This document shows positions 25,568 to 29,551 of a stretch of 33,820 nucleotides of DNA, one piece after another. Each line of letters begins with the position of its first letter. Within the stretch, counting starts at the first letter, position 1. The stretch spans positions 1 to 33,820 of the forward strand of contig JALWCU010000252.1 in the NCBI GenBank assembly GCA_027015275.1. Reading direction: 5' to 3'. Source of the stretch: Bacteroidales bacterium. GTDB lineage: Bacteria; Bacteroidota; Bacteroidia; Bacteroidales; S143-33. Made by a program: the position numbers and the translations under genes. A model generated the notes under the pieces. It made no database searches. It saw only the letters and a program-made list of their open reading frames with translations, and was not told where the DNA came from.

Positions 25568-26260
25568 TTACTGAACATTGTATCGAGGGACTGACTTCCA
25601 GACGTACCTACTTTGGCCTATATTCACATTAATACCCACTGAGAACAAAAGAGGGAAAATCGGTAAATCTGTATTCTGTTTAAAATCATAAGCAAATCCC
25701 ACCTGAGTCAAAACTCTGAAACGCTTATATCCAATCTTTGCAGTCAATGTCGGTTTCCAAAACACCGTAGATAAAGGAGACTTTAAGTATGCACCTTTCA
25801 AATCGCTAAAATTAATCGCAACAAATGATGAGGACAATCCCAAATCAATTATATCTGATGTAAAACCAATGGTTGGCTGTAAAAAAATATCTTTATAAAA
25901 GAACTGCGAATAATTATTATCCATCTTACCACCGTCAAAACCTAAATAAACTTCATAACGTCCATGCTTACCTATACGTCCGAAATAGCCGCTACCCAGA
26001 GCAAGACTAAACTGCCTGGCATAAGAAGAATCAGACTTTGAGTTATAATAATAACCATTACCAATCAAACCTATATGATTTGTTAAAGCATAAGAGACCT
26101 GAGGCGCTACTCCCAATCCTAGTAATAAGTTGACCTGTTTTTCGCCCCTATTTGTTAACATCGGCGCATCAACAGGCGATGGCAAATACACTGGTGCACA
26201 ATCTACAGACACCAGAATTATTATCAAGAAAAAAAATGAGAAAAATTTAGTACACTTCAT
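25568..26260 (-). CDS. Putative outer-membrane beta-barrel-like lipoprotein
   Basis: 230 aa; signal peptide with candidate Cys (IIILVSVDCAPVYLPSPVDAPMLTNRGEKQVN), then alternating amphipathic strands (VSYALTNHIGLIGNGYYYNS, LALGSGYFGR). Asp before the Cys is a weak lipobox. Confidence 0.6.
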   Translation of the reverse strand: MKCTKFFSFFFLIIILVSVDCAPVYLPSPVDAPMLTNRGEKQVNLLLGLGVAPQVSYALTNHIGLIGNGYYYNSKSDSSYARQFSLALGSGYFGRIGKHGRYEVYLGFDGGKMDNNYSQFFYKDIFLQPTIGFTSDIIDLGLSSSFVAINFSDLKGAYLKSPLSTVFWKPTLTAKIGYKRFRVLTQVGFAYDFKQNTDLPIFPLLFSVGINVNIGQSRYVWKSVPRYNVQ

Positions 26261-26376: not shown

Positions 26377-26401
26377 GCCCCGCAGACCATACCTGCAGGG
26401 C
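26377..26401 (-). terminator. Rho-independent terminator of the amidase/membrane-protein cassette
   Basis: gccccgcag-accatac-ctgcagggc (26377-26401); 9-bp stem with one G-U on the minus RNA, followed by TTTGTTATTATTTT. Confidence 0.7.
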
Positions 26402-26441: not shown

Positions 26442-26930
26442 CTAACCAACAGCGCCCTCTTCTTCGGTTTCTATAGGCGATGAGCTTATTCTCTCAGGCT
26501 GGTCTACACTACCATAGCCATATTCATAAGAAGCCTTTGATTTTTCAACAGATGTAATATGGTGCATAACTTTAGCGCCAAAATAAAATCCTATCATCAT
26601 CTCAAACGAAACCATTAGTTCATGCATCTGGGCTTCAAAGCCTTCTACACGGACATTAACCAACTCCATAACAACAACAACCCACAAAAGCGTCATTGTA
26701 AGCAAACCTCTAAATGTTCCACGAGGCATACCCATAGTTTCCTTCTCATAAGGATTAGGATTCTCCACGCTCCAATTTCCAAATGTGTACTTAATAAACA
26801 AAGTAAGAAGAAAAACCATTACAATTACCATCCACAACATAATCGGAAAATAAACGAACCAAAAAAATTCCTTAGGATGGCCAACATAATACTGCACAGT
26901 ATCTGGGAAGATTTGAAGTAAAGTTATCAT
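26442..26930 (-). CDS. Small integral membrane protein, 2-3 predicted TM segments (holin-like size, function unknown)
   Basis: 162 aa; hydrophobic FFWFVYFPIMLWMVIVMVFLLTLFI and GLLTMTLLWVVVVMELV, possible third MMIGFYFGAKVMHHI; acidic C-terminus. Confidence 0.8.
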   Translation of the reverse strand: MITLLQIFPDTVQYYVGHPKEFFWFVYFPIMLWMVIVMVFLLTLFIKYTFGNWSVENPNPYEKETMGMPRGTFRGLLTMTLLWVVVVMELVNVRVEGFEAQMHELMVSFEMMIGFYFGAKVMHHITSVEKSKASYEYGYGSVDQPERISSSPIETEEEGAVG

Positions 26931-26965
26931 ATTTTGTTATATTTTTAGTTTCTTGTTTTAATATT

Positions 26966-27403
26966 TTAAAATAAATATGCACCTAAAGCAAAAGCAGCAA
27001 TTGTAGAAACAATCCCTACTAACTTGGCTATTTTAAATTTAGTATTTAGCATATCATTCTCTTTTACAAGGACTTTAATATTATCACTGCATTCCCTCCA
27101 ATCTTTACGATATAATTCCATATTCTTCTGAGTTTGCATAAGAAGTGTGTCTGTTTGCTCTAATTGTTCATTTAAATTCTCTACTTGTTCTTGATAATTT
27201 ACAATCTGCTTATTGGCATTATCCAGCTCTTTTGCCGTTATGAGTGCTCTTTCAAGCTGATTATCAGTTATAACCCACAGCGTATCTTTCTTGGGCGCGA
27301 CAGTAATTTTCTGGCCCGGTAGCACTGCCCGGGGATACCCCTGTCCCCATGATGAAATTAAAGAAAATGCCAAGACAAAAACTATTAGAACATTCCTTTT
27401 CAT
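26966..27403 (-). CDS. Exported coiled-coil protein with C-terminal TM anchor (spanin-like topology, function unknown)
   Basis: 145 aa; signal peptide MKRNVLIVFVLAFSLISSWGQ; heptad-like NQLERALITAKELDNANKQIVNYQEQVENLNEQLEQTDTLLMQTQ; C-terminal LVGIVSTIAAFALGAYLF. Confidence 0.8.
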   Translation of the reverse strand: MKRNVLIVFVLAFSLISSWGQGYPRAVLPGQKITVAPKKDTLWVITDNQLERALITAKELDNANKQIVNYQEQVENLNEQLEQTDTLLMQTQKNMELYRKDWRECSDNIKVLVKENDMLNTKFKIAKLVGIVSTIAAFALGAYLF

Positions 27404-27414
27404 ACTGCTATAGT

Positions 27415-27852
27415 TTAGGTCCCGAAATAATCTGTAAATTCTTGCGCTTTATCTTGCATAGACATGGATTGTACTTGAGCTTCTATCTGTTTTCTTTCGA
27501 GCTTCAGTTGATCCAGCTGATCTTGCAATTTTTGTAATTTTGCTCTAAGATCTTCTATCTGCATTTCCTTTTGTTTGAGCATAGCCTCATATTGTTGCCT
27601 GAGGATAGCTTCTTCTTTCTCTATCTGCATCTGTCGCATAAGTATCTGATGTGCTTTACCCTGTCCTTGACCTCTACCTTGCCCTTTCTTTTTCTCTTTC
27701 AAAGAATCTTCGATAAGTTTATATGGTCCAGCTGCACCAGCCAACAGAACCGTTAGCCACTGCCAATCCGTTTTTATAATTCCTTTGTTATATAAATAGC
27801 CAACAATGAGTACAAGTAAAATTATACCCAAAAAAACATAAAGCTTTTTCAT
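27415..27852 (-). CDS. Membrane-anchored coiled-coil protein (function unknown)
   Basis: 145 aa; N-terminal LYVFLGIILLVLIVGYLY and WQWLTVLLAGAAG hydrophobic segments, GQGRGQGQGK linker, long charged coiled coil. Confidence 0.8.
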   Translation of the reverse strand: MKKLYVFLGIILLVLIVGYLYNKGIIKTDWQWLTVLLAGAAGPYKLIEDSLKEKKKGQGRGQGQGKAHQILMRQMQIEKEEAILRQQYEAMLKQKEMQIEDLRAKLQKLQDQLDQLKLERKQIEAQVQSMSMQDKAQEFTDYFGT

Positions 27853-27866
27853 GATTAATAGCTTTT

Positions 27867-28682
27867 TTATTCTGGTTCAACGTATTTTCCAAATATCCAC
27901 CCTTCTATTGTAACTGCAACCTTATACCAGCCATCATGTTCATCCTTTATAATTACTTTTGTTCCTTTGGGCAAGGGTCGAGCAACTATAGGGGCAGTAG
28001 TACTCGGCTTTAGACGTATATTCAGACTCCTTGCTACAATACGCCCAGCCTGTGGTGGCTCAGGTGCTCCATTCTCATCACGATGTGTGCCAAGCAGGCG
28101 GTCTCGTAATTTATCGAGAGGGAAAGCAGGCCCTGGATCTAATTTTCTCCCAGGAGCAATCTCTTCATGCCCAAGGATAAATTTTAATCCATAAGTATCA
28201 ATAAGCAATTGGCAAAGCTCAGTAACAGTATCTATCTGCTCTGGCGTATAAATCTGCCAATAACGAGGACGAGTCTCATTGCGATGAACAGCTTCAATAA
28301 CTTCTGTAGGGCTAAAAGCCTCTCCGTACCATGAGCGAAACACATTTCCACTCTTAGTCAGAGGCCCAGCATTCACAATCTCTATACCAATAGAGAAATT
28401 ATTAAAACCGCTACGTCCATGATAATAACTCTTGCCAGCATGCCATGCAATAAGATTAAATGGCACCAGCTGCGTAACACTTCCATCACGATCGACGACA
28501 ACATGGGCAGAAGCACGTACTCGAGGGTTAGTCAAAGTATTTATAGACTGCTTATAAGGCCCACCCGTGTAATGAATTATTATAGTGTCTAAATCTCCCT
28601 CTTTAAACTCTCCACCATGATTAGGGGAAGGAATCATCTTTTTAACATTCTTGCCATAAAGAATGTGATCTTTGATTTCCAT
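27867..28682 (-). CDS. N-acetylmuramoyl-L-alanine amidase (Amidase_2/AmpD-like) with C-terminal SH3b-like domain, no signal peptide
   Basis: 271 aa; LDTIIIHYTGG, SAHVVVDRDGSVTQLVPFNLIAWHAGKS, FSIGIEIVNAG, GHEEIAPGRKLDPGPAFP; C-terminal LNIRLKPSTTAPIVARPLPKGTKVIIKDEHDGWYKVAV...GWIFGKYVEPE. Confidence 0.92.
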   Translation of the reverse strand: MEIKDHILYGKNVKKMIPSPNHGGEFKEGDLDTIIIHYTGGPYKQSINTLTNPRVRASAHVVVDRDGSVTQLVPFNLIAWHAGKSYYHGRSGFNNFSIGIEIVNAGPLTKSGNVFRSWYGEAFSPTEVIEAVHRNETRPRYWQIYTPEQIDTVTELCQLLIDTYGLKFILGHEEIAPGRKLDPGPAFPLDKLRDRLLGTHRDENGAPEPPQAGRIVARSLNIRLKPSTTAPIVARPLPKGTKVIIKDEHDGWYKVAVTIEGWIFGKYVEPE

Positions 28683-28789: not shown

Positions 28790-29551
28790 TTAATTTTCAT
28801 AGTTCCAGCCAGCACCCAGACTTGTGCCAACTATCTGGAATGTAATAACATTAGGGGGGCCTTCATATCCCGGCCTTTCCTGCTGTAAAATAATAGCAAT
28901 CTTGTCGTCAATAGGGCTAATCAATACACCGGCAATTGTTTGTGAAATTATTATAGAATTTCTTGGTAAGTCCTTATCATAAACAATCTTAATACCTCTC
29001 TGGGGAGAACGTATAATGATTTTCGTATGTCCCACAGGTTCAAAGCCATACCCCTGTTCCTTGCGGTAATCTGTCTGAAGCTCTACGCTGAAATCATCGC
29101 CCTGATAGGTAAAATATGGCGCAAGTAACTGCGGCTTTTTGTCTTGGATAATATGATATTTATTCAAAATAGTTTTAAACTGGTTATAATTATTTTTCCA
29201 TACTTCTTCCCTTACCACATCCTCGTCAGGCGATGTAGCCCAATGCCAAAGTGTATCACCACTTATTAGATTAACAATATACATTTCGAAAACATACACA
29301 TCCATACCTTCCATAGCAGGTTCTACTATAAAAGCAAAATTGCCGTCATCAGACCAGCCCAGTGGGAACAGTTTATCAATCAAGTAATCAGTACGAGCTT
29401 GATAGTAATATAGCTCTGGTGGAAAAAAATAATCCTGCTCAACAAACTGCTTGGACTTTGTTTGAGCTATGTTTGACTTTTTGTCCTTTTTACAAGAAAA
29501 AATACTTAGGACAATTAGCATAAAGGCAATGTATTTAATCTTTGTAATCAT
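28790..29551 (-). CDS. Putative lipoprotein of unknown function (start corrected)
   Basis: MITKIKYIAFMLIVLSIFSCKKDKKSN... lipoprotein signal-like; this start removes the overlap with ridA created by the track start at 29572. Confidence 0.75.
   Translation of the reverse strand: MITKIKYIAFMLIVLSIFSCKKDKKSNIAQTKSKQFVEQDYFFPPELYYYQARTDYLIDKLFPLGWSDDGNFAFIVEPAMEGMDVYVFEMYIVNLISGDTLWHWATSPDEDVVREEVWKNNYNQFKTILNKYHIIQDKKPQLLAPYFTYQGDDFSVELQTDYRKEQGYGFEPVGHTKIIIRSPQRGIKIVYDKDLPRNSIIISQTIAGVLISPIDDKIAIILQQERPGYEGPPNVITFQIVGTSLGAGWNYEN

Follow-up and report, generated by a model that had tools for sequence, protein, structure and literature searches.

The question raised by this locus is why a bacterial chromosome should carry, packed against one another, a peptidoglycan amidase that lacks a signal peptide and three small membrane proteins. 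Within the window, by which we mean the whole 33,820-nucleotide stretch of Bacteroidales DNA analysed here, the four minus-strand genes are separated by gaps of only 14, 11 and 35 nt, with coordinates, strand and order exactly as in the original prediction, and they lie among ribosomal, LptD-like and housekeeping genes, outside a prophage. The answer argued for below is that the cassette is probably a phage lysis kit which some uncultured Bacteroidota have kept for their own use, probably for opening the envelope or for releasing material. The features on which the argument draws are as follows.

AMI, 27867..28682, minus strand: endolysin-like amidase (Amidase_2 + SH3_3) without a signal peptide, 271 aa; from Pfam, conserved residues and a tree
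CC1, 27415..27852, minus strand: N-terminal membrane segment(s), then a coiled-coil-type helix, 145 aa; from 29 same-slot homologs
CC2, 26966..27403, minus strand: signal peptide, periplasmic coiled-coil-type stretch and C-terminal TM anchor, 145 aa; from 29 same-slot homologs
TM3, 26442..26930, minus strand: three-helix membrane protein, 162 aa; from a 33-sequence alignment, AF2 helices and a count of end residues
LP260, 28790..29551, minus strand: beta-rich lipoprotein (FSC-type lipobox), upstream partner of AMI; from upstream homologs
Terminator-like hairpin, 26377..26401, minus strand: downstream of TM3; purely a consensus match

The cassette had been placed between two terminators. A hairpin matching the consensus does follow TM3, in a window where a scan overall finds terminators no more often than chance would give. 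The second is visible by eye before AMI, at about 28775-28745 (GCTACC...GGTAGC with A/T tracts), with a loop that exceeds the scan rule; because this hairpin separates LP260 from AMI, LP260 may be transcribed separately in the window. Downstream of the module, positions 25568-26260 encode a secreted protein with no Pfam match.

A conserved module of four, usually five, genes

The four-gene set is a real, conserved and co-inherited module. In all 29 loci, from 28 genomes of about 14 families, the genes run AMI-CC1-CC2-TM3 on one strand without exception, with short intergenic distances and frequent overlaps; a script confirmed 28 of these loci, and in the 29th (L085) the amidase is truncated where the contig stops and another amidase lies close by. 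The conserved linkage on which the original prediction depended is found, and its four genes do hold together, but the conserved unit is usually one of five, LP260 having been missed. Of the 26 informative loci (three further loci end at a contig edge and were left out of the count), 22 have a homolog of LP260 immediately upstream of AMI and on its strand, and four, L018, L021, L025 and L079, lack one. The AF2 model of LP260 has a pLDDT of 87, and a search of that fold against the PDB found none resembling it.

LP260 is also the sole conserved flanking gene across the 29 loci. Outside the module the flanks are unrelated, any one gene being common to at most four loci, and conserved phage genes are absent from them, in keeping with the earlier remark that no other phage genes were in view of this chromosomal cassette. 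The pairwise divergences of the five genes, LP260 included, are correlated (r 0.64-0.84), and comparison with the nearest relative, at a dS near saturation, indicates purifying selection on both AMI (dN/dS about 0.02) and TM3 (about 0.08).

When 60 relatives were searched with TM3, homologs turned up in 12 genomes including the window's own, mostly of other families of the same order, and the TM3 profile found 33 carriers among 393 genomes of the order, a patchy distribution. Outside the order there is one clear case, G343, among 393 genomes sampled phylum-wide; weak NuoL-like matches there (E near 1e-3, in frames of about 650 aa) were discarded as chance.

Such patchiness, together with a small self-contained cassette that carries a lytic enzyme through varying flanks, is what might be expected of anti-phage abortive lysis, in which the cassette would kill the infected cell before phage maturation. 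We consider this very unlikely: PADLOC gives no matches beyond coiled-coil noise, no defence island is present in the contexts examined, and a sensor or nuclease partner is absent.

Two observations on individual loci may be recorded here. One genome bin (G001) holds two very similar copies of the cassette, L014 and L015, possibly strain variants. In two families (L023:2248-4594, L073, L075 and L087) an MBOAT-type acyltransferase and SGNH-type pair adjoins the cassette, an arrangement that recalls O-acetylation of the wall or another polymer.

An amidase of endolysin lineage

The description of AMI as an amidase with an SH3-type domain and no signal peptide stands: Pfam matches Amidase_2 (7.6e-30) and SH3_3 (6e-10), and the N-terminus has no hydrophobic segment. 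AMI aligns over its full length, SH3 included, with phage endolysins, among them those of Roseobacter and Erythrobacter phages, at up to 37.5% identity; a viral contig of 130 kb (L088) encodes an amidase that shares 58% identity with the AMI core. A tree was built from 104 amidases, with E. coli AmpD as its single-sequence root; some inner supports are weak, and 27 cassette amidases form one clade (support 0.94), with two just outside it. The cassette amidases group with the L088 enzyme and with amidases that are paired with holins, and that group joins the phage endolysins (0.986), away from AmpD. The residues equivalent to the zinc ligands and catalytic residues of AmpD, H37, E101, H172, K180 and D182, are all conserved. 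It is well supported by these comparisons that AMI is an endolysin-lineage amidase, and one that has kept its catalytic residues.

Could AMI nevertheless be a plain cytoplasmic AmpD, recycling wall fragments beside neighbours with which it has nothing to do? It shares the Amidase_2 fold and catalytic residues of AmpD, and the genome has just one further Amidase_2, within a frame of about 900 aa, so that no other stand-alone AmpD candidate is at hand. AnmK is present, which means that anhydro-muropeptides are probably handled; an argument against AmpD from a missing recycling pathway was dropped for that reason. AMI differs from AmpD, however, in its C-terminal SH3 domain, its endolysin grouping and its fixed linkage with three membrane proteins in 29 loci, and at 103 bits it does not reach the cut-off of the NCBIfam AmpD equivalog, 143 bits. 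Of 198 genomes of the order, just 28 have a strong AMI, and a muramidase can take the amidase's slot. We regard a role confined to recycling as most improbable.

Several cassette-carrying genomes also have a longer AMI paralog. Such paralogs, of about 330-350 aa (L085:2319-3365, L204:5329-7727, L205:5356-7568, L207:7472-8524), stand alone or are arranged in tandem about a small lipoprotein, and in some the C-terminus is extended by further SH3-like sequence.

Exchange and fusion of the enzyme

The muramidase substitution is seen in G343 (L067), where a PG_binding+Muramidase protein (PF11860, 2.9e-63) occupies the amidase slot, with CC1-like, CC2-like and TM3 genes after it on that strand, the first two assigned by position, size and hydrophobic layout, their profiles being unmatched. 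In three further loci (L068, L070, L071) TM3 carries the muramidase fused at its C-terminal end. A DUF5675 domain is carried on TM3 in L068 and L071 and on the CC1-like protein in L070 and, by sequence, L071. That chemically different wall-cutting enzymes are swapped within one slot fits a function in wall cutting, not in the recycling of anhydro-muropeptides. In three loci (L069:7699-10244, L070:5889-8676, L071:8451-10928) the long form of TM3 precedes a lipoprotein with DUF4230 together with a larger membrane protein, the latter also matching DUF4230 where tested.

Relatives of AMI paired with a recognised holin

Three genomes of the order (G524, G510, G045) have a strong relative of AMI and no TM3 match, and in each the amidase adjoins a protein matching GTA_holin_3TM (PF11351, E 8.6e-14 to 1.5e-25). 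A fourth genome, G064, from outside the order, has a further such pair beside an enolase-like gene. This holin is rare in the order, occurring in 6 of 149 genomes, and three of the six are amidase pairs. The pairing is not universal, since in L200 (G577) an AMI relative without TM3 adjoins a DUF5362 protein and no holin. Because a holin stands at the same place in these sister loci, TM3, CC1 and CC2 occupy the position of a recognised holin. Amidases and other endolysins also sit beside small TM proteins in flavobacterial phages (PMC8776804), which fits the ancestry proposed here. The pairs themselves, apparently chromosomal and with phage genes not in view (L201:5657-6946, L202:6012-7351, L203:49-1415, L218:545-1902), are candidate simple release modules.

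The three membrane proteins

TM3 was foreseen as having two or three TM segments, and it has two strong ones plus a third long helix in the AF2 model (helices 19-49, 72-94 and 98-136, pLDDT 74). The 33-sequence alignment displays the motifs PRGTFRG and FQMMIAFYFGSKVMHH-type and an invariant C-terminal glycine; among the short forms the final residue is G in 29 of 29, with an alanine two places earlier in 26. The charged residues around TM3 suggest a topology in which the loop bearing PRGTFRG would be inside, as would the C-terminus, rich in K and H, and the acidic loop outside, and a muramidase fused to that C-terminus would then face the cytosol.

As the original prediction had said, TM3 and the two coiled-coil proteins match no family that can be named: Pfam, NCBIfam, PHROGs and PADLOC give no curated match, so that membership of a known unrelated complex is not indicated, and TM3 as a known family was set aside. 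Profile searches against holin and spanin families, as the original prediction had proposed, returned no family match for TM3, CC1 or CC2. A phrog of unknown function, phrog_13256, is weakly matched by 27 of the 33 TM3 members.

The comparison with GTA_holin_3TM deserves separate mention. The end motif of TM3, MMIAFYFGSK, resembles TMIAFYFGGR in L217, and an alignment of the two profiles is in register and beats reversed controls; it is not significant, however (hhalign prob 5-17%), and TM3 as a GTA holin was rejected. PF11351 is absent among the matches listed for the 33 members (the best 25 of 52 weak families) and among those listed for TM3 queried singly against Pfam. Fold searches with TM3 against BFVD and the PDB gave nothing, and no TM3 was found in the phages, plasmids and viral contigs searched. 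Since no phage copy was found there, the membrane part of the module may be bacterial in origin.

The layouts of CC1 and CC2 agree with their earlier description as a membrane-anchored protein and a signal-peptide protein with a C-terminal anchor, judging by hydrophobicity across homologs. CC1 has a strong N-terminal TM segment, a weaker second hydrophobic stretch (mean KD 1.14) and a long charged helix. It could be folded as a hairpin whose coiled coil lies in the cytosol, or it could be, should the second segment not span the membrane, an N-in, C-out protein of i-spanin-like form. CC2 combines a signal peptide, a charged helix like that of CC1 and a C-terminal hydrophobic anchor, a two-ended layout kept in nearly all homologs. 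The term "coiled coil" denotes here heptad-like charged sequence and weak family matches, not a coiled-coil prediction, and the matches themselves (E about 1e-3) are noise from sequence composition. In L017:3882-4589 CC2 reaches 235 aa through a duplication of its N-terminal DTLWV-type domain.

A membrane-anchored periplasmic coiled coil beside an endolysin is equally a feature of the phage spanins (Rz/Rz1, T1 gp11), and u-spanins, too, have a C-terminal TM (PMC6139136). CC2, on the other hand, has an ordinary signal peptide, no lipobox and no spanin family match, its PHROG spanin matches being at the level of coiled-coil noise; a CC2-type query against phages gave no match. LP260, in turn, is a large folded protein and not a short proline-rich peptide.

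Lysis, release or wall remodelling

We lean, by a little, towards reading the cassette as a holin/endolysin-like envelope-opening module, derived from phage lysis, kept on the chromosome and working like a type 10 system. This reading is supported by the endolysin grouping of AMI, its holin-paired relatives and the swap and fusion of the muramidase. The mechanism would run as follows, with the membrane topology, the gating, the part played at the outer membrane, the release and any cargo all inferred. AMI would fold in the cytosol, held back by TM3 and CC1, which once triggered would admit it to the peptidoglycan in the role of a holin; CC2 and LP260 would link or disrupt the outer membrane in a spanin-like role; and lysis, local or complete, would follow, releasing material from the cytosol as type 10 secretion does.

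Type 10 systems consist of a holin and a hydrolase, often with spanins, located outside prophages. Lysis has been shown in Yersinia and Serratia (PMC10847048), while a non-lytic mode has been argued for Salmonella (PMC10109510). The Serratia ChiWXYZ, Yersinia YenLC and Salmonella STM0015-0016 cassettes are small chromosomal sets of hydrolase and membrane proteins in a non-prophage setting (PMC10847048, PMC10109510), and the present module has both the phage-type peptidoglycan hydrolase and the non-prophage location. It differs in enzyme class (Amidase_2 or Muramidase PF11860) and in having three membrane proteins of no known family and no linked cargo, no conserved flanking gene but LP260 being found. 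It differs also in its TM3-hydrolase fusions, which go without mention in the passages of the type 10 accounts drawn on here.

The original idea of a domesticated lysis or release module therefore survives in part. The phage-lysis ancestry of the enzyme, the chromosomal setting and the linkage speak for it; the lack of any holin or spanin family match, the non-significant TM3-holin profile comparison and the lack of a fold match for TM3 do not. Also counted against a lysis module are the absence of TM3 from phages, of a lipobox from CC2 and of a conserved cargo gene, the four loci that lack LP260, and the L200 relative with no adjacent holin.

A possible reading, though one we hold at rather less than even chances, is that TM3, CC1 and CC2 are three new families, neither classical holins nor spanins. 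They would form a Bacteroidota apparatus that delivers or gates a cytosolic, sometimes membrane-tethered, peptidoglycan hydrolase, with exchangeable enzymes (amidase, muramidase, DUF5675 domain).

The module might, alternatively, serve a non-lytic, regulated remodelling of the wall for growth, division or trans-envelope assembly, TM3 and CC1 holding the hydrolase at the inner membrane and controlling its entry to the peptidoglycan while CC2 and LP260 bridge to the outer membrane. The strong purifying selection on AMI, the place of the cassette among housekeeping genes, the tethering of the hydrolase through TM3 fusion in L068, L070 and L071, and a lipoprotein partner in most loci would all suit such a role. 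A hydrolase of endolysin lineage without a signal peptide, carried by so few genomes of the order and with relatives paired to recognised holins, suits it poorly, and we think it unlikely.

Should the lysis-type reading be true, the module would extend chromosomal lysis and release to another phylum, the type 10 systems of the cited papers being those of enteric Proteobacteria, and would bring with it enzymes that can be interchanged and three membrane protein families without a name. No description of the four- or five-gene set was found in the literature searched, as judged mainly by titles and abstracts. The module offers a route to understanding the possible release of large cytosolic complexes by uncultured Bacteroidota, and fusions of enzyme and membrane protein provide a way to ask how an endolysin without a signal peptide reaches the wall.

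Contractile injection systems were considered as a general cargo and rejected. Tail-sheath genes are enriched among carriers: 6 of 34 have them, and of the 359 other genomes in the sample of 393, 20 do (one-sided p 0.017, odds ratio 3.6, ignoring relatedness). Yet they are absent from most carriers, the window's genome included, and for that reason injection systems are not the general function. Two cassette-carrying genomes (L241, L242) contain clusters that look to be of the contractile-injection type, with sheath, tubes, PAAR and baseplate-like genes.
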